A stretch of 64,000 bases of DNA from Anaerococcus obesiensis ph10 (GTDB taxonomy: Bacteria; Bacillota; Clostridia; Tissierellales; Peptoniphilaceae): positions 598,171 to 662,170 of the forward strand of contig NZ_HE978532.1 of the NCBI RefSeq assembly GCF_000311745.1, in the 5' to 3' direction. Numbering within the stretch: the stretch's first letter is position 1; the number at the start of each line of letters is the position of its first letter. Under the pieces are notes generated by a model. The model did not search any database and was not told the origin of the DNA. It worked only from the letters and a program-made list of their open reading frames with translations. Of the stretch, positions 1 through 25,441 are shown in pieces. The translations under genes were made by a program, and so were the position numbers.

Positions 1-52
1 TAGTATTTTCTGGATACTTTGCCTTAAAGCCCCTGTGTGCATAATTTAACAT
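1..52 (-). CDS. Glycerophosphodiester phosphodiesterase, N-terminal fragment (runs off window)
   Basis: Only the first 17 codons are present, reading MLNYAHRGFKAKYPENT. The HRG and PENT signatures are the opening metal/phosphate-binding motifs of the GDPD (GlpQ/UgpQ) family, which hydrolyses glycerophosphodiesters to glycerol 3-phosphate and an alcohol. The ATG at 52-50 is preceded by a strong ribosome site, AGGAGG, at 62-57. The gene has its own promoter at 126-154 and a hairpin in its leader. The family call rests on two short but very characteristic motifs; substrate and localisation cannot be judged from this fragment. Confidence 0.8.
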   Translation of the reverse strand, partial: MLNYAHRGFKAKYPENT

Positions 53-15777: not shown

Positions 15778-16284
15778 ATGGATGATAAAAATTTAATAAA
15801 AGGAATTAAAAACAAAGATGAAAAATATTTGATTGAATTCATTAACCTTTATGGGCCTATATTAAAAGGAGTTATTGTAAAAACTATAGGAAATAGGAGA
15901 AATATTCTAGATGAAATTTTAAATGATGCTCTCCTTGGAATTTGGGATAATATAAATTCTTATGATCCTACTAGGTCATCTTTTAAAAATCGGTGTGCAG
16001 GAGTTGCCAAATACAAGGCAATTGACGCAATTAGAAAAGAAGCAAAACACGACTGCCTTGACCTTGATGATATTTCAGGTTTTATTTATGATAAAAATTT
16101 AGAAAATTATGATGAAAGCGAAAAAATTCTTGAAATGTTGTCAAAAAAAGACAGAGAGATTTTCAAAAAATTATTTATAGAAGGATATTCATACGATGAT
16201 TTAGAAAAAATCACAAAAATTCCAAAAGACAGACTCTATAACAAAGTAAGCCGTGCCAAAAAAACTTTAAGGAGCAAATTATGA
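15778..16284 (+). CDS. ECF-type RNA polymerase sigma factor
   Basis: A 168-residue protein with sigma-70 region 2 (about 15-85, including YKAIDAIRKEAK) and region 4 (about 108-165, with a helix-turn-helix in YSYDDLEKITKIPKDRLYNKVSRAKKTL). It should direct RNA polymerase to a small regulon. The ribosome site AAAGGAGG is strong. Its stop overlaps the start of the next gene by four bases (ATGA), the classic arrangement with a cognate anti-sigma factor. Confidence 0.88.
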   Translation: MDDKNLIKGIKNKDEKYLIEFINLYGPILKGVIVKTIGNRRNILDEILNDALLGIWDNINSYDPTRSSFKNRCAGVAKYKAIDAIRKEAKHDCLDLDDISGFIYDKNLENYDESEKILEMLSKKDREIFKKLFIEGYSYDDLEKITKIPKDRLYNKVSRAKKTLRSKL

Positions 16285-17270
16285 AAAATATCTATGACAA
16301 AATAAATGATATGGATTTTGAAATTGAAAAAATCGAATTAAACGACTTTGAAAAAGAAAAATTAATAAAAACTGCAAAATCCTACAAAAAAAATAAAAAA
16401 TCAAAAAAATTTTTGCCAATAGCAGCTGCATTAATCCTAGTAGCTGGACTTAATATTCCAATTGTAAAAGCAGAAGTTTCAAAATTTACAACAGACATAA
16501 AAGTAACAATGATGGAAGCCTTTGGTGCAAGTCCTGATTCCTACAAATATATGGCAGAAATTAATAAACCAGTAACAGTGGGAGAAGATTCATTTGTGAT
16601 AGGAAATATAGCCTTTGAAGATAATAAAATATTTATAAATACCCTTAGAAATGGAAAAAATTTAGAGGAAAATACAAAAAACAATTCATATTTGTATAAG
16701 GTGGTAGTTGATGGAAAAACTTATAAAGCTATGAGCTCATCAGGAGGAGAAGGCCTATTAGAAGATAAAAAAACATCCTCAGAAAATCTTATGATAAGTT
16801 TTGACAAATCTTTTCCAAAAAAAGATAAGGCGAACGTAGATTTATATTTTTTAGATGCAAATAAAAGCCAAATAATTTCAATAGAATCTCCAATGAATAC
16901 AATAAACGAAGAGAACAAAATTTTCGCTGAAAATTTAAAAATAAAAGGAACAAACGCCACAATTTCATTGATGAAAATAAATCCAATGACCCTTACAGCA
17001 ACAATAAAAAATCTCGATCAAGCCTATGTTTATGAACTAAAAGGAGTTGACGAAAAAGGAAATAAAATTTCTCTAGATGAAAGAGTTGCAGATGAAAATT
17101 CAACAACTTTTATTTTCAACAATTATTTCTCAGACCTAAGCCTAGACGAAATAAAAGACGGAAGAAAATTTAATTTCACCCTAAGTCGTTCAAAAATTAA
17201 TGAAACATCCGGCAAAGAAAGTGATGGAAACTTTGAAAAATTTGCAGAATTTTCATTAAGTGCCAAATAA
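16281..17270 (+). CDS. Membrane-bound anti-sigma factor, DUF4179-like
   Basis: A 329-residue protein with a cytoplasmic N-terminus (about 1-43), one membrane helix (about 44-64) and an extracytoplasmic domain of about 265 residues rich in beta structure. The layout and the DUF4179-like extracellular part match anti-sigma proteins encoded beside ECF sigma factors. It probably holds the upstream sigma factor at the membrane until an envelope signal releases it. The signal is unknown. Confidence 0.75.
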   Translation: MKNIYDKINDMDFEIEKIELNDFEKEKLIKTAKSYKKNKKSKKFLPIAAALILVAGLNIPIVKAEVSKFTTDIKVTMMEAFGASPDSYKYMAEINKPVTVGEDSFVIGNIAFEDNKIFINTLRNGKNLEENTKNNSYLYKVVVDGKTYKAMSSSGGEGLLEDKKTSSENLMISFDKSFPKKDKANVDLYFLDANKSQIISIESPMNTINEENKIFAENLKIKGTNATISLMKINPMTLTATIKNLDQAYVYELKGVDEKGNKISLDERVADENSTTFIFNNYFSDLSLDEIKDGRKFNFTLSRSKINETSGKESDGNFEKFAEFSLSAK

Positions 17271-17327: not shown

Positions 17328-18014
17328 TTATTTTGCCAATGATTTTTGCATTTTTATATTTCTTTTTCTTAATCTTAGGATTATATAAGCCAAATATATA
17401 AGAGTATATATAACCACTCCTAACATATTTTCTTTCCAATTAGCTGAATATAACACCATAACGTGGACATATATTCCTATGAAAAATGGATATGCCATTT
17501 TTTGCAAATTTTTCCAACTTTTAGCTTTCATTTTGCGACGAACTGTCTTAAAAGAAGTTACAAAAAGAGGAATCAGCATCAACAATAAAAATATTGTTAT
17601 TATTGATGCTATTAATTGTCTTTGAGGCATAGAGCTAGGATTTGTAAAAAGAATTGGGAAATAACGCAAACCAAATATTATATTGTGGCTAAAAACTAAT
17701 AAGCTTGCCATTATAGACATTTCTCCACGAATTGCCATCAATTTTTTTGAAAAATCATTATGTTTTGTAATAGTTCCTAAAAACATTACTATCATAAATG
17801 AAGCTGTAGCAAATATCCCCCTTGAAAATATCTTCATAAAATATTCATTAAACCAAGTAGGGAAATTTCTATCAAAGCCCATATTATAATAATAAACTAC
17901 AAATCCTGTCCAAGCATATATTCCTAGATAAAATATGACAGGATATTTTTTAATCAAATCCTTAGTTAAACTATAAAAAATTATAGTAAACAAAATTCCA
18001 GTAATTAAAGTCAT
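17328..18014 (-). CDS. Ferric-reductase-like heme membrane protein
   Basis: A 228-residue protein with six predicted membrane helices. H110 (in LLVFSHN) and H184 (in GIYVHVMVLY), each in a helix, with SWKNLQKMAYPFF before the second, match the cytochrome-b-like ferric reductase/MsrQ fold, which binds heme and carries electrons across the membrane. It follows the FMN-domain protein gene by 27 bp with a good AAAGGAG site, so the two form one operon. I infer that it passes electrons from the cell to the flavins of the neighbour. MsrQ proper normally has additional conserved His residues. Confidence 0.7.
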   Translation of the reverse strand: MTLITGILFTIIFYSLTKDLIKKYPVIFYLGIYAWTGFVVYYYNMGFDRNFPTWFNEYFMKIFSRGIFATASFMIVMFLGTITKHNDFSKKLMAIRGEMSIMASLLVFSHNIIFGLRYFPILFTNPSSMPQRQLIASIITIFLLLMLIPLFVTSFKTVRRKMKAKSWKNLQKMAYPFFIGIYVHVMVLYSANWKENMLGVVIYTLIYLAYIILRLRKRNIKMQKSLAK

Positions 18015-18041
18015 CTTATTCTCCTTTCTATTTTCATAAGC

Positions 18042-21000
18042 TTATTGTTCCTTTTGTGTAGGATTTTTACTTTCATCAATGATAATTTCCTCTTTATTTT
18101 TTTCTAAAGGGGGCAATTGAGAGTTTTTTGTGCTTTGAATTTTGAGAGAATCTTTTTCGCTTTCACTATTTTCTTTTTCAGTTTTTTCTAACTCTTTATT
18201 ACCAGAATCTTTATTCGATTCATTTTTATCAGGATATTTTTTCTCATTTACAGAAGGTTTTAAAGAAGGTTTCTCCTCTATTTTATTTTTAGAATTTTCC
18301 TTTTTCTTTATAGCCTTTTTGCTAGAAGATTTATCTTGACTATTTTCTTTTTTAACAGCTTTTTTCACTATTACCATCACGTAAGCTTCGCCTACTTCTT
18401 TTGTTCCTTTGCTTTTGAATTGTAGGTACACTCTTTGTGGGGCTTCGCTTACTTTGCTATAGTCTGGTTCGTTTTTAAAGCTTACTTCTACTGAACCGTC
18501 TTTTGGTATGTTTGAAAATCTTTCTTTGTAGTCTTCTAGCCTTGGGGCTTTCCCTTCTACTATTATTGGTTTGCTTGAGCTTCTTTGTGGTGTGAATTTT
18601 TCGCCGTGATCTTTATCTTCGTCATCGGATATGCCATCTCTATCTTTGTCTCTGTATAACCAATATGTGATTTTTCTTACTAAGAGTTTGCCTTTTTTCT
18701 TTGCTTTGAATTTTAGTGTTATTGTTTTAAATCCACTGCCGTCTTCTGGCCAACCTTCATTGCTTGGTTCTGGGATTCCTGTTATTGTTTTTCCGTCAAA
18801 GATTAAGCCTTTTGGTAATCCGTCTATTTCTTTTAATATTTCTGCGTCTTTATCTAGACTTGTTACTGTTGCTGGTCTTATTTCTTTGCCTTCTATCCAC
18901 TGTTGACCGTTTGATTCCATTAGACTTGTGTCTATTACTTTTTGGTCTACTTCTATTTCTTCTTCTTGTGGTTTTGGTTTTTCTTCTTTTTCAACGGCTT
19001 TTTTCACTATTACCATCACGTAAGCTTCGCCTACTTCTTTTGTTCCTTTGCTTTTGAATTGTAGGTACACTCTTTGTGGGACTTCGCTTACTTTGCTGTA
19101 GTCTGGTTCGTTTTTAAAGCTTACTTCTACTGAACCGTCTTTTGGTATGTTTGAAAATCTTTCTTTGTATTCTTCTAGACTTGGGGCTTTCCCTTCTACT
19201 ATTATTGGTTTGCTTGAGCTTCTTTGTGGGCTGAATTTTTCGCCATGATCTTTATCTTCGTCATCGGATATGCCATCTCTATCTTTGTCTCTGTATAACC
19301 AATATGTGATTTTTCTTACTAAGAGTTTGCCTTTTTTCTTTGCTTTGAATTTTAGTGTTATTGTTTTAAATCCACTGCCGTCTTCTGGCCAACCTTCATT
19401 GCTTGGTTCTGGGATTCCTGTTATTGTTTTTCCGTCAAAGATTAAGCCTTTTGGTAATCCGTCTATTTCTTTTAATATTTCTGCGTCTTTATCTAGACTT
19501 GTTACTGTTGCTGGTCTTATTTCTTTGCCTTCTATCCACTGTTGACCGTTTGATTCCATTAGACTTGTATCTATTACTTTTTGGTCTACTTCTATTTCTT
19601 CTTCTTGTGGTTTTGGCTTTTCTTCTTTTTCTTTTTCTTCTACTAAATTTTTATCGGATTCTTCTCCTGATAATTGGAAGTTTACATATATTGTCTTTGG
19701 TGTATTTGGATTTTCTTCTTTGAGCAATGTATATTTTACTTGTCTATTTACTGGCAATTTATCGCCTGTGTACTCATAACGATTACCATTTTTTGATACT
19801 GCTCTAAGTTTTACTTTTTCAAATTCAAATGATGTTGGTGCATCGATAACTTGATGGTCGGAAATATTTCTTTTATCTACGTAATCCATTTCAACTTTAT
19901 CGACTTTGTACCACTTATTTCCATCTGCGCTGTATTCTAATCCGATTATATAATCTTTACTATATTTTCCGATTAAAATTCTAAAGTCATCATAGGATAG
20001 TGATTTTTGGTGCATTACTTTTGCTTTTATAATTTTTTTGTCAGCATAATTTTTTAAGTCGCTTCCGTTTTCTATTATTTTTCCGTTTTCGTCTGTAATG
20101 CTAATTCCATTTTCTTTGAAATCTTTCCATTCTACTTCTTTTTGACTTCCATCTTTTTTGATTAAGTTTACTTTCATTTCTGTAAAATCAACTCCATCGC
20201 CTTTGTTTACTTCTATGTTTTTATTTTTTGGAGCTGTTATTGTGATTTCTTTTACATCTGAATTTGTAATGTAATCATTTGATGATTTTTTTGTAGCCTC
20301 TCTTGCTGCTGATGATATTCCACTAGCACTAACTGTTGCACCTGTAACGCTATCAAATAATTCTTTTGACTTATATTTTTTGGACATATAAGCTTTAACT
20401 GTTCTTGAAATTAGTGTTAAATCTGATTCTGAATTATCATTTCTATATCCGTTAAGATTATTTGCATATTCTGCACCAAAAAGTTCTAATGCTTTTGCTT
20501 TTGGGTTACTACTTTTTCTTATTGTTTCAAAATACTCTCTGTATAATCCCATTTTTGCAAGATTTAGTCTTGCTTCTTTTCCTTTTATAAAGGATAAAAC
20601 TTTTTCTGCTTTTTGTCTAAATGGTCCCATATCATCGCCGTATTCTGAATTTTCTCCTACTCTTATTTCAGAAATTTCTCCATTTTCGACTTTTATATAT
20701 GTTCTGATTTTTCTTGTATTAATATATCCAATGCCCCATCCTGTATATTCGCCGTCTTTTAATGGTTGATCGTTATAATATTTTTTAAGGGCTTCATCTA
20801 TTTTTTCTTCGCTTGGTTTTTCTGGTTTCTTATCTTCTTCTGGTTTTTTATCTGGCTTTTGTTGGTCTGGCTTTTTGTCAGGTTTTGATGGACTATTTTC
20901 AATTCCAGCTTTTGATACTGCATTATTTATAGCATCTATTATTCCTTTGCTTGAGAATGTTGCTCCTGATACTGTATCCACGTTTTTGCCAGGCTTACCA

Positions 21001-22358
21001 AGCATTTTTGAGATTACTCCTTTTGATTTGCTAAAATAAGGATCATCTTCTTTGTGTGAAAGGATTTCTACTTTTGTTATTGAACCTTTTGCTATGGTTA
21101 CTTTTACTTTTATTGGACCATTAAAGCCTTCTGCTACTCCTTCGTATACACCATCTTTGTATTGTTTGTAAATCTTATTATCTTTACTTGGTTTTTCTGG
21201 TTTTTTATTTGGTTTTTTTGCTTGATTTGTATTTGATGGTTTTTTATTTTTATTATCAACATTTTTGCTTCCACCCGCTTTTGATAGAGCATTTCTTACT
21301 GCATCAAGTATTCCTCTACTTGAATATGTTGCACCAGAAACTGTATCAACACTTTTGTCAGCTTTTCCTAAAATTTTTGATATAACTGCTCTTGCTCGAC
21401 CAAAATATGGATTGTCATCGCTGTGTGAAAGTATTTCCACGTTTGTTATTGAGCCTTTCGATATGGTTACTCTAACTCTTATTGGTCCATTAAATCCTTG
21501 ACCTGAGCCTGTGTAAACTCCATCTTTAAGGTCTTTATTTCCAATTGCTACTGTCCCTTTAGCATTTGCTCTTTTATTATTGCTTGATGCTTTATTTACA
21601 GCTTGCACTTTTGCATTTTCCTTAGAGCCAGCTTTGTGAAGGGCATCAGCTACTGCCATTTTTATAGCGTTTGATGATACTGTAGCTCCTGTTACTGAAT
21701 CTACATTTACACTTCCACTACTTAAAATTTTATTTATTACAGCATAAGCTCTATTAAAATATTCTGGTGTTTCATTTTGTGAAACAACTTCTATTCCACT
21801 TATTTTTCCATTTTTTATGATTACTTTTACGGTTAAATTTCCACCATATCCATTTGCGCTACCAAAATACTCTCCATCTTTTAACCCTTCTACTGGTTTT
21901 TTATCTTCTTTTTTAGCTTTTTCTTTTATTTTTTCTTTCGAACCAGCTTTTTGGAGTGCTTTTAAAACAGCATCCTTTATAGCATTTGATGATATGGTTG
22001 CTCCTGTAACAGAATCTACATCTACTTTTCCTGTTCTTAAAATTTCTTTTATTATCGCTGAAGCCTTTTTAAAATATTCCTCAGTTTCATTATGGGATAA
22101 AATCTTGATGTCTGTTAATTTTCCATTTTTAACAGTTATTCTAACAGTCAACAAACCACCATAACCTTCAGAACTTGCTTCGTATTGACCATCTTTTAAA
22201 TCTGTTGCAAGACGAGCGCTATCGCTTACTATTTTGTCTTTTTTTTCAGCCGCAAGCTTATTTTTTTCTAAGACAAACATAGACGATTTTATCATAGCCA
22301 TAGACGCTAATCCTACAATAATAAAGGTCAATACTTTCTTTAAAAATGTATTTTTCAT
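18042..22358 (-). CDS. Surface protein with five FMN-binding domains and twin C-terminal repeats
   Basis: A 1438-residue exported protein, probably held by an uncleaved N-terminal helix (residues 8-30). Five FMN-binding domains follow, each with the ApbE-type flavinylation motif [S/T]GAT; the acceptor Thr residues are T121, T226, T344, T467 and T675. The first four domains are about 80 residues long; the fifth (about 532-690) is longer and divergent. After a beta-rich region come two nearly identical 213-residue repeats (about 909-1334), each with a calcium-binding-like DKDRDGISDDED motif, and a charged tail without an LPXTG signal. It likely forms a chain of covalent flavins outside the membrane. 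A Fur-like box lies far upstream and a ferric-reductase-like gene immediately downstream. Confidence 0.85.
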   Translation of the reverse strand: MKNTFLKKVLTFIIVGLASMAMIKSSMFVLEKNKLAAEKKDKIVSDSARLATDLKDGQYEASSEGYGGLLTVRITVKNGKLTDIKILSHNETEEYFKKASAIIKEILRTGKVDVDSVTGATISSNAIKDAVLKALQKAGSKEKIKEKAKKEDKKPVEGLKDGEYFGSANGYGGNLTVKVIIKNGKISGIEVVSQNETPEYFNRAYAVINKILSSGSVNVDSVTGATVSSNAIKMAVADALHKAGSKENAKVQAVNKASSNNKRANAKGTVAIGNKDLKDGVYTGSGQGFNGPIRVRVTISKGSITNVEILSHSDDNPYFGRARAVISKILGKADKSVDTVSGATYSSRGILDAVRNALSKAGGSKNVDNKNKKPSNTNQAKKPNKKPEKPSKDNKIYKQYKDGVYEGVAEGFNGPIKVKVTIAKGSITKVEILSHKEDDPYFSKSKGVISKMLGKPGKNVDTVSGATFSSKGIIDAINNAVSKAGIENSPSKPDKKPDQQKPDKKPEEDKKPEKPSEEKIDEALKKYYNDQPLKDGEYTGWGIGYINTRKIRTYIKVENGEISEIRVGENSEYGDDMGPFRQKAEKVLSFIKGKEARLNLAKMGLYREYFETIRKSSNPKAKALELFGAEYANNLNGYRNDNSESDLTLISRTVKAYMSKKYKSKELFDSVTGATVSASGISSAAREATKKSSNDYITNSDVKEITITAPKNKNIEVNKGDGVDFTEMKVNLIKKDGSQKEVEWKDFKENGISITDENGKIIENGSDLKNYADKKIIKAKVMHQKSLSYDDFRILIGKYSKDYIIGLEYSADGNKWYKVDKVEMDYVDKRNISDHQVIDAPTSFEFEKVKLRAVSKNGNRYEYTGDKLPVNRQVKYTLLKEENPNTPKTIYVNFQLSGEESDKNLVEEKEKEEKPKPQEEEIEVDQKVIDTSLMESNGQQWIEGKEIRPATVTSLDKDAEILKEIDGLPKGLIFDGKTITGIPEPSNEGWPEDGSGFKTITLKFKAKKKGKLLVRKITYWLYRDKDRDGISDDEDKDHGEKFSPQRSSSKPIIVEGKAPSLEEYKERFSNIPKDGSVEVSFKNEPDYSKVSEVPQRVYLQFKSKGTKEVGEAYVMVIVKKAVEKEEKPKPQEEEIEVDQKVIDTSLMESNGQQWIEGKEIRPATVTSLDKDAEILKEIDGLPKGLIFDGKTITGIPEPSNEGWPEDGSGFKTITLKFKAKKKGKLLVRKITYWLYRDKDRDGISDDEDKDHGEKFTPQRSSSKPIIVEGKAPRLEDYKERFSNIPKDGSVEVSFKNEPDYSKVSEAPQRVYLQFKSKGTKEVGEAYVMVIVKKAVKKENSQDKSSSKKAIKKKENSKNKIEEKPSLKPSVNEKKYPDKNESNKDSGNKELEKTEKENSESEKDSLKIQSTKNSQLPPLEKNKEEIIIDESKNPTQKEQ
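18357..19634 (-). repeat. Tandem 639-bp in-frame repeat, two near-identical copies
   Basis: Copies at about 18357-18995 and 18996-19634 are offset by exactly 639 bp (213 codons) and differ at only a few bases. They encode the C-terminal repeats of the FMN-domain protein. Such identity implies recent duplication or ongoing gene conversion, and copy number may vary between strains. Confidence 0.92.
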
Positions 22359-22878
22359 CTTTCCTCTTTACAAAATATATTTAGGTTATTAAAGGTAACC
22401 TAAACCTTTTTGATTTTCATTTACATAAAAATCTTAAAAATTATTGAGTTGTGGAGTATAAACTCCAAATTGCAAATAAATTAAATAATCTATTTTGCAA
22501 GGATGAATTTTTAGATATTTTTCAAAATGTTTAAATCAATTTTAATTTCTATCTAAAATATTCGGTTTATAAGTCTTGATATTGGTAAAAATAACTTTGC
22601 TTTTCTCATTTTTATAGTATTTTTAAAAATAACTAATTTTTATTTGATATTCTTAGTAAAGTTTTCCATAATATTTTTATCTAATCAAATATTTTGCCGA
22701 ATAAATACAAATCTAAATCCTTATAAATTTTTATAATTAAAACCTTTATATGATTACTTTATTCGCTTTATAATCTAGCTATATTTTTTCAATATCAATT
22801 TTTATTTTTTCACTTTTCCCCCTTTCTAAAAATTTATAAATTCTTACAAGTTTTTTATTTAAAAACCCGTTAGTTCTA
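22359..22878 (-). promoter_or_regulatory. Long AT-rich leader of the FMN-domain protein gene
   Basis: About 520 bp between the Fur-box promoter and the start codon hold no convincing gene; one 18-codon frame has no ribosome site. Near the start codon TTTAGGTTA (22380-22388) and TAACCTAAA (22396-22404) form a perfect 9-bp hairpin just upstream of the AGAGGAAAG ribosome site. This is compatible with post-transcriptional control. Confidence 0.45.
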
Positions 22879-22931
22879 ATAGTGATAATCACTATCTGTT
22901 CTATTATACAAAATTGTAGAAAAAAACACAA
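22879..22931 (-). promoter_or_regulatory. Promoter with Fur-like box for the flavin/iron module
   Basis: On the minus strand TTGTGT (22931-22926), a 17-bp spacer and TATAAT (22908-22903) are followed by ATAGTGATAATCACTAT (22879-22895), a perfect 8-1-8 palindrome. With its flank it agrees at about 15 of 19 positions with the classical Fur box. It lies at the expected start of transcription, so iron-loaded Fur would block expression. Confidence 0.65.
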
Positions 22932-23205: not shown

Positions 23206-23245
23206 AAACTGCTGTAAAATAGAAATATCTATTCTACAACAGTTT
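23206..23245 (-). terminator. Terminator of nrdB
   Basis: A long stem with arms at 23206-23222 and about 23228-23245 (AAACTGTTGT with ACAGCAGTTT on the minus strand) is followed by a T run, 12 bp after the nrdB stop. Confidence 0.8.
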
Positions 23246-24517: not shown

Positions 24518-25441
24518 ATGAAACCATTTAAAACCTACGATGAACAAATTGATATTTTAAAATCTAGAAATTTAGAAATTAAAGATAAAAGTAAAGCCAA
24601 AGACATACTTTCACAAATAAATTATTATAATTTGATTAATGGCTACAAAGATCCTTTTTTAATAAAAAATGATAAATTCAAAGATAATGCTAGCCTTGAA
24701 GAAATCTACTCCCTCCATGAAATGGATAGAGAATTAAAACAAGTTGTATTTTCTTCACTTTTAAAATTTGAAAAACTTTTAAAAACATCCTGCGCCTATA
24801 ATTTTTCTAATCTACATAAAGATGGATTATATCCTTACTTACAAGTTGAAAATTATTCAAATTCTAAATATCAATTTTCTTACGTTCTAAATAACCTTGC
24901 TACTTTGTCTAACGCTATTAGAAAACAAACAAGAAATTCAAATGCTAAAAAACCTATAAGACACTACATCGACAAACACGAAGATATTCCCCTATGGGTT
25001 CTTGTAAATTTTCTTACCTTTGGAAATATTTCTCATTTTTATAATTCTCTAGATGAATCTCTTCAAAATACCATTGCTAAAGATTTTGGACAAAGATATA
25101 AAGAAAATTATAATTCCAAAGAAAAAATAAGCAAAAGTGAGCTTATAGAAGTTATTAAAATATGTAATTTTTTCAGAAATATCTGTGCTCATGATGAGGT
25201 TATGTATTCTTTTACTTTAAATAAATCTTGTCAAACTGCTATTTTTGAAAAGTTTTTTGACGAAGAATTTAGTGGTAAAAATTTACACGATTTAATTTTA
25301 TCTTTAAAGTTAGTTTTGCCAAAAAATGAATATCAAAACCTAATAAATTCAATATCAAAAATCAAAAATAAATACAAAGATGAATTTAAAAGTATAAGTA
25401 TAAATAAAATATTCGAAATTTCAGGCTTTAAAAATCAGTAA
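24518..25441 (+). CDS. Abi_2/AbiF-type HEPN abortive-infection protein
   Basis: A 307-residue protein of the Abi_2 (AbiD/AbiF) family. The N-terminus (KPFKTYDEQIDILKSRNLEI) and the INYYNLINGYK segment are typical. The HEPN ribonuclease motif R-x4-H is at R220 to H225 (RNICAH). These proteins act in phage defence as RNA-targeting toxins held in check by an associated RNA, and have been proposed as relatives of the Cas13 ancestor. The gene sits behind the hairpin RNA at 24462-24502, has GAGG before its start, and is inverted between nrdB and nrdA, which suggests horizontal insertion. Confidence 0.85.
   Translation: MKPFKTYDEQIDILKSRNLEIKDKSKAKDILSQINYYNLINGYKDPFLIKNDKFKDNASLEEIYSLHEMDRELKQVVFSSLLKFEKLLKTSCAYNFSNLHKDGLYPYLQVENYSNSKYQFSYVLNNLATLSNAIRKQTRNSNAKKPIRHYIDKHEDIPLWVLVNFLTFGNISHFYNSLDESLQNTIAKDFGQRYKENYNSKEKISKSELIEVIKICNFFRNICAHDEVMYSFTLNKSCQTAIFEKFFDEEFSGKNLHDLILSLKLVLPKNEYQNLINSISKIKNKYKDEFKSISINKIFEISGFKNQ

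Follow-up and report, generated by a model that had tools for sequence, protein, structure and literature searches.

In a window of 64,000 nucleotides from Anaerococcus obesiensis ph10 (the whole stretch of DNA analysed here, C2:598171-662170 of a 2.04-Mb, five-contig assembly), two minus-strand open reading frames (ORFs) form a small operon. The frame at 18042-22358 encodes a protein of 1438 amino acids (P0001) with five FMN_bind domains; it is followed, after 27 bp, by the frame at 17328-18014, encoding a membrane protein of 228 amino acids (P0002) that resembles ferric-reductase domains. A Fur-type palindrome is found at the promoter. The completeness of the assembly was judged to be 92%, and all genome-wide absences reported below carry this caveat. 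Orthologues of P0002, 98-99% identical to it, belong to Anaerococcus vaginalis ATCC 51170 and to records of A. ihuae, and the host of the operon is a bacterium of the A. vaginalis group.

The two proteins of the operon

P0001 matches FMN_bind of Pfam in five stretches (E 2.2e-77), and the flavinylation motif [ST]GAT was found in it five times, once in each domain. All the domains are read from the minus strand: domain 1 (21942..22187, motif VTGAT with T121), domain 2 (21633..21887, VTGAT, T226), domain 3 (21282..21527, VSGAT, T344), domain 4 (20913..21158, VSGAT, T467) and domain 5 (20265..20741, VTGAT, T675). When the genome DNA was searched, four of these domains scored above the FMN_bind cut-off; the fifth, which is longer and divergent and contains an insertion, reached 21.1 against a cut-off of 22 bits and is thus below it when taken alone. 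The only PDB chains matched by the sequence of P0001 were 8p2b (E 1.9e-10) and 8p2a (E 2e-4), which are single flavin mononucleotide (FMN) domains of known multi-flavinylated proteins. In the orthologue from A. jeddahensis (L006) the fourth motif is SEAT instead of SGAT, which on sequence grounds probably means the loss of one flavin; because of this substitution, the flavin sites do not all seem to be under strict constraint. One ApbE protein is encoded in the genome, at a distance from the operon; it exceeds the Pfam cut-off (E 7.9e-70) and matches the NCBIfam ApbE model below its equivalog cut-off (E 4.6e-37).

The only hydrophobic segment of P0001 is N-terminal (approximately residues 5-30) and is a probable uncleaved membrane anchor. 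An LPXTG motif was looked for in the protein and not found. The protein contains no Cys, and for this reason the idea of a multi-heme-type wire was dropped. Domain 5 is followed by a further region and then by two tandem modules of 213 amino acids (18324..19601, minus strand), identical in 614 of 639 nucleotides and 201 of 213 residues and carrying DKDRDG loops. There are two such loops in the window protein and in that of locus L002, and three in the proteins of A. hydrogenalis (L005) and A. jeddahensis. The C-terminal modules are a putative Ig/Rib-like stalk; the Ig domain He_PIG matches P0001 below the cut-off and the equivalent protein of locus L104 above it. A predicted model of domain 5 with these modules is poor, with a mean predicted local distance difference test score (pLDDT) of 65.5 and a predicted template-modelling score (pTM) of 0.30; its Foldseek matches with complement C3, cadherins and the Sap S-layer protein suggest only chains of beta-sandwiches.

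For P0002 (17328..18014, minus strand), a good AlphaFold model was obtained (pLDDT 83.6, pTM 0.75), which together with hydropathy gives six to seven membrane helices. Foldseek ranked STEAP1 and STEAP2 first for this model, at E 0.04-0.12 and a probability of 1.00. In VIA-align, the top 16 rows were all chains of STEAP4, STEAP1, STEAP2, SpNOX, NOX5, DUOX1 and phagocyte NOX, with Z from 12.2 to 8.1 and the next, unrelated row at 7.8, a range (Z below about 13) in which, as the tool itself warns, matches of helical bundles can be due to chance. Sequence identity in the STEAP matches is about 12-16%. The relatives of P0002 give further indications: PF01794 was detected at E<=0.1 in 9 of the 25 family members tested (best 8.3e-8), the fused relative L080 passes the cut-off of this family (29.9 against 28 bits), and at E<=0.001 MamZ was matched by 23/25 and MsrQ by 3/25 members. 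P0002 itself shows a weak C-terminal match with the MamZ model of NCBIfam (E 2.7e-8), far below the model cut-off. A first, 6-row profile of P0002 gave only a weak hhalign alignment with Escherichia coli MsrQ (E 0.019, probability 2.4); with the 25-row profile, E 0.003 was reached at a probability of only 10, and H110, H184 and Q171 of P0002 were paired with H91, H164 and H151 of MsrQ, respectively. H110 and Q171 are invariant in all 25 rows, position 184 is occupied by His in 19, Gln in five and Tyr in one, and both histidines are kept in five of the five Anaerococcus rows.

P0002 is a putative ferric-reductase-domain-like membrane cytochrome that would hold one bis-His heme, for which H110 and H184 are the candidate ligands. 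By the positive-inside rule, basic loops face the cytosol, and in STEAP proteins the heme lies toward the outer half of the membrane. The basic loops of P0002 at about 82-95 and 153-168 would then be cytosolic and its heme would be placed toward the outer half; with a single heme in this position, a site for quinol or a cofactor on the inner side would be required. A molybdoenzyme partner of the MsrP type is absent from the two-gene operon, the rest of the genome not having been searched for it, and the same operon, with no genome search made, lacks EetA/EetB and type II NADH dehydrogenase of the Listeria-type extracellular electron transfer.

An earlier note on this DNA had described an operon of two genes 27 bp apart, and both frames and the spacing were confirmed from the ORF coordinates. 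The five FMN-binding domains and the [S/T]GAT motifs with their named threonines were borne out by the Pfam and motif searches, the motif positions being exact. The note's word "exported" rests on the single hydrophobic N-terminal segment, which looks like an uncleaved anchor, and there is no LPXTG motif to go with it, and its "six-helix" partner has to be read as a protein with six to seven helices. The description of this partner as ferric-reductase-like stands as far as the best fold matches and the profile matches of relatives are concerned; the proposed profile search for both domains found FMN_bind in P0001 but not PF01794 in P0002.

The promoter, its Fur-type box and the iron genes

The palindrome AATAGTGATAATCACTATC at 22878-22896 is perfect over 19 bp and begins six bases after the TATAAT of a probable sigma-70 promoter (TTGTGT-17-TATAAT, 22903..22931, minus strand), which was read by eye with its positions checked. 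Its -35 element, TTGTGT, is weak, with three of the six consensus bases, and the promoter is missing from the output of the scan. The operon probably has its own transcription start, since a terminator-like hairpin (23206..23245, minus strand) 3' of the upstream gene of the ribonucleotide reductase small chain separates this gene from the operon transcript. In the 2.04-Mb genome, AATAGTGATAATCACTATC is the sole match to RATARTGATNATCAYTATY with 0 mismatches. At <=2 mismatches, one match was found in the window against 0.16 expected, with at least one match in 15 of 100 shuffles; at <=3 mismatches, the 66 sites in the genome, compared with 49 for a reversed control, are close to background.

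Seven Anaerococcus genomes contain the operon and six of them keep the Fur-type box: it is exact in the promoters of L002, L003, L004 and L006 and has two mismatches in that of A. hydrogenalis (L005). TATAAT is conserved in L004-L006. In the promoter of A. tetradius the 19-bp pattern has no match at up to 3 mismatches; a weak Fur-like site seen there by eye exceeds this limit and was not counted. In A. tetradius (L069), too, there is a long stretch upstream without an obvious gene.

In the window, the box is followed by a leader of 519 nt (22359..22877, minus strand) with a fold z-score of -2.84 (for 22359-22870) and, immediately ahead of the ribosome-binding site, a hairpin of 9 bp (22380-22404). 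In L005, the distance from the box to the start codon is shorter, 422 nt. The leaders were aligned without L002 and L003, which are near-copies of the window. A search of Rfam gave nothing usable for the window (at the gathering threshold) or for the leader (E<=1), and only chance-level matches for the leader of A. tetradius. A conserved short ORF in the leader was considered by eye and rejected, the 18-codon ORF of the window not being kept in L004-L006.

A connection with iron is suggested by another promoter of the same genome. The composite pattern TATAAT-(2..20)-GATAGTGATnAT was found at this operon and upstream of the feoA-feoA-feoB genes, confirmed with Pfam, and nowhere in about 80 kb of other, partly overlapping loci of this genome or in 200 first-order resampled windows (0/200), a count that overstates the strength of the result, as the pattern was derived after both promoters had been seen and was then counted on them. 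Upstream of feoAAB, three sites within 3 mismatches are crowded into a 73-bp stretch, where two of them overlap. Two FeoB proteins are encoded in the genome. The siderophore- or heme-type binding protein PF01497 was not found in it, by a search that was positive in 13 of 14 reference genomes used as a control.

Three FUR-family proteins are present. Fur is the best-scoring model for L015 and L017, neither of which reaches the equivalog cut-off, and PerR is that for L016; L017 adjoins a gene of a ZnuA-type zinc-binding protein and, on this sole ground, was called Zur-like and may be a zinc regulator. The earlier note had proposed that fur and apbE should be sought elsewhere in the genome, naming a lack of ApbE as fatal to its idea; three FUR-family proteins and one copy of ApbE were found, so that this first refuting condition did not apply. 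The interpretation given in the note is supported in part. What it called a near-perfect Fur palindrome at the promoter is in fact a perfect one after the -10 box; its distance of 519 nt from the start codon had gone unmentioned. The control by Fur that it assumed is supported by the layout common to feoAAB and by a box kept in 6/7 promoters, but cannot be extended to the module as a whole, as is seen from its distribution.

Distribution and gene neighbourhood

Of 31 Anaerococcus genomes, 7 encode a homologue of P0002; in wider samples it was found in 4 of 398 genomes for the phylum and 17 of 391 for the class. The own genome is included in each of these counts. Outside Anaerococcus, 19 loci were examined, 18 from 16 surveyed genomes and one from Sarcina ventriculi (L008); genome G097, matched in both surveys, was counted once, and the neighbour counts do not include two class-level matches (G495 and G569), whose frames contain internal stops. 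The genetic linkage with flavinylated proteins is recurrent. FMN_bind is present at 15 of the 19 loci, fused to the membrane domain in six and encoded nearby in nine; the profiles for FMN_bind and ApbE used in this neighbour search were built from P0001, L008, L080 and the own ApbE, so that the matches of L008 and L080 are partly a matter of construction, but FMN_bind in both was confirmed with Pfam. Included among the 15 is the FMN_bind neighbour in L108, which has no [ST]GA[TS] motif, yet passes the Pfam cut-off. ApbE is adjacent at 4/19 loci (L008, L109, L110 and L112). The order of a long multi-flavin chain and then a membrane protein recurs in L103, L104 and L105; for the first two of these, Pfam confirmed FMN_bind. 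Around the P0002 homologue of L081 (genome G119), two long FMN_bind chains, a six-domain flavin protein and a single-domain one are all separate proteins, and one of the long chains has SLH and Rib domains above the cut-off.

The 19-bp box was not found within 3 mismatches in any of the 20 upstream regions outside the boxed clade (those of the 19 loci and of A. tetradius). A looser 15-bp pattern of the 7-1-7 type with 2 mismatches gave a single site before L106 and another before L107 (2/20 regions); these were not counted, the site being the sole one in the L106 locus and one of five in the L107 locus, both of which are AT-rich and without FMN_bind. With no box in any of these 20 regions, the module is more widespread than its control by Fur. 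Probably, Fur took over a module of a kind already known within a single clade of Anaerococcus, and this control looks like a local acquisition.

As for the neighbours of the operon in the window, the stretch at 15778-17270 on the plus strand, tail to tail with the operon, encodes a small factor of the sigma-70 type and, overlapping with it, a putative DUF4179-like protein (a weak match, E 0.015). On the other side, an Abi_2 (abortive-infection-like) gene is located at 24518-25441 on the plus strand (Pfam E 9.4e-41), between the gene of the ribonucleotide reductase small chain and the next large minus-strand ORF, which by eye looks like the large chain.

Possible functions and known systems

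In our opinion, the operon may well encode an extracytosolic electron-transfer pair induced by iron starvation, with ferric reduction at the cell surface feeding FeoB, a proposal that we are about as ready to believe as to doubt. Surface ferric reduction coupled to Fe2+ import is the most economical reading because the layout of the box is common to feoAAB. When iron is scarce, Fur would come off its site, which would allow transcription of the operon along with feoAAB. P0001 would receive as many as five FMN from ApbE. P0002, as a STEAP- or MsrQ-like cytochrome, would take electrons at the inner side of the membrane from menaquinol or a cytosolic flavin reductase and would pass them to P0001, held next to it by the N-terminal anchor. 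The four "beads" and the longer fifth flavin domain would lead to the Ig/Rib-like stalk, which might extend into the wall or beyond it. Close to the surface, ferric iron, free or chelated, would then be reduced, and the Fe2+ formed would be imported by FeoB. What the sequence shows are the domains and motifs, ApbE, the box and its layout in common with feo, the similarity in fold and the repeated linkage of the genes; the loading with flavin and heme, the electron donor, the direction of the electron flow and its acceptor, like the response to iron, are what we infer.

The quinone-linked L-lactate dehydrogenase subunit LdhH is encoded in this genome (991.5 bits against a cut-off of 800) in a cluster (L083 3136-9217, own genome, C2) with a MenG-like gene that passes its subfamily cut-off, MenA-like and polyprenyl-synthase-like genes, both below the cut-offs, and a FixC-like gene. 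A quinol donor is possible since LdhH stands beside the MenG-, MenA- and polyprenyl-synthase-like genes. The cluster might also represent a small chain working with quinones, in a bacterium supposed to live by fermentation. Porphobilinogen deaminase (HemC) was not found in the genome by a search that was positive in 11 of 14 control genomes, for which reason the heme of P0002 would come from outside; that a mucosal anaerobe scavenges it is plausible. A bolder scheme can be drawn up, in which lactate oxidation by a heme-auxotrophic host anaerobe feeds a quinone pool, a single-heme STEAP1-like cytochrome and a surface flavin chain stripping iron from ferric sources of the host, with Fur as one switch for both the wire and the FeoB importer; taken as a whole, it is rather unlikely. 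If true, a multi-flavinylated protein would, to our knowledge, for the first time have been given a physiological task.

A number of results weigh against surface ferric reduction as the function of the operon. In addition to the limits stated above for the composite count and the VIA-align scores, to the low hhalign probability with MsrQ, to the lack of HemC and to the 0/20 boxes outside the clade, these are the position of the box 519 nt before the start codon, behind a long leader, and the second FeoB locus, at which the 19-bp pattern was not matched even with 3 mismatches. No FMN_bind is in view at four of the 19 outside loci (L079, L106, L107 and L111). P0002 itself is not matched by PF01794 at E<=0.1, nothing useful for it came from Pfam, its model has no Foldseek match at E<=0.001, neither of its two profiles finds a PDB chain at E<=1, H184 is replaced in 6/25 members of the family, and the protein has no NAD(P)H domain. 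Finally, a 3-mismatch Fur-like site (L028 1501-1519) that precedes a gene of L-lactate/malate dehydrogenase by 70 bp and a 2-mismatch site (L021 1501-1519) upstream of a rubrerythrin gene both speak against a regulon purely of iron uptake.

The site before the dehydrogenase gene lowered our confidence in surface ferric reduction and raised that in its main rival, an iron-sparing electron sink, in which a flavin route replaces iron carriers under starvation and dumps electrons on a non-iron acceptor (soluble flavin, quinone, peroxide or oxygen) and does not serve iron uptake. In Clostridium difficile, flavodoxin, Rnf and the synthesis of riboflavin go up when iron is low, and Fur is reported to control ldh, fldX and rib in C. 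acetobutylicum (PMC6311696). Reduced SaFMN3 reacts with oxygen (PMC10339131). The genome contains the Rnf genes besides the cluster of quinone-linked lactate dehydrogenase, and the module is widely found without the box, both of which suit such a sink. RnfG is a separate flavoprotein. However, P0002 appears to need heme, an iron-containing cofactor which the cell seems unable to make; the exact layout of the box is common to the ferrous importer, and 3-mismatch sites such as that before ldh are near background (66 versus 49). An electron sink is accordingly possible but somewhat doubtful.

The same rubrerythrin site raises the question of which regulator is bound, rubrerythrin being a typical target of PerR. 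With three FUR-family proteins in the cell, one scoring best as PerR (L016) and one Zur-like by its ZnuA-type neighbour (L017), the palindrome might serve PerR or Zur and the operon might answer to peroxide or zinc, but this is very improbable given that the same layout precedes feoAAB and that the box fits the Fur consensus with 0 mismatches. An improbable, though not quite so distant, explanation concerns the C-terminal part of P0001, which might act as a redox-coupled surface adhesin whose Ig/Rib-like modules bind a host or matrix source of iron or heme, the flavins reducing it locally and iron being released. The tandem modules with their differences in copy number, He_PIG above the cut-off in the equivalent protein of L104, the Ig-like and S-layer-like fold matches of the low-confidence model and the failure to find PF01497 in the genome are in line with it; on the other hand, a ligand from the host cannot be deduced, the mean pLDDT of the model is only 65.5 and there is no LPXTG motif.

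Surface ferric reduction should be compared with several known systems. In PMC8238504, 2081 multi-flavinylated proteins were counted in 1530 genomes, some of the clusters having Rib or SLH wall domains, and their role is described there as generally unclear. P0001 is like these proteins, including SaFMN3 and CbFMN4 (PMC10339131), in having several FMN_bind domains with ApbE motifs in one chain; it differs in that a single polypeptide contains the four beads together with the divergent fifth flavin domain and the Ig/Rib-like modules. The MsrQ-like flavinylation systems (PF01794 with FMN_bind and ApbE; PMC8238504, PMC11334425) similarly place a heme-type membrane protein beside FMN_bind, whereas P0002 is missed by PF01794, has no NAD-binding domain and carries Gln in place of H151 of MsrQ, and apbE is located elsewhere in the genome. 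STEAP metalloreductases, especially STEAP1, which like P0002 is without an NADPH domain (PMC10659578, PMC7363144), match P0002 in fold and in the heme of the membrane domain, which is putative in P0002; unlike them, P0002 is bacterial and would act through a flavinylated partner rather than reduce iron on its own.

A parallel in regulation is provided by flavinylated reductases of the PepSY-like type that Fur represses in Shewanella and Caulobacter (PMC8238504), where a flavinylation cluster is also under Fur and iron reduction was proposed; they have a different membrane protein and Gram-negative hosts, and a multi-flavin surface chain is not mentioned for them. Anaerococcus is not mentioned among the papers listed by the literature searches, which is a weak absence. 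In the excerpts covered of the papers on flavinylation systems, we did not find described a conserved Fur box with the feo layout, this one-chain architecture or a cytochrome family that PF01794 sees in only 9/25 members. The operon also points to a ferric-reductase-like membrane family travelling with flavinylated proteins, 16 of whose 25 tested members give no PF01794 match at E<=0.1. Multi-flavinylated proteins are common in Gram-positive bacteria, and for one of them the operon, set apart from the known multi-flavinylated systems by the regulatory evidence of a Fur box layout common to feo, offers a concrete, testable task, which rests on a conserved iron box with the layout of a ferrous importer and on a genome in which no PF01497 was found.

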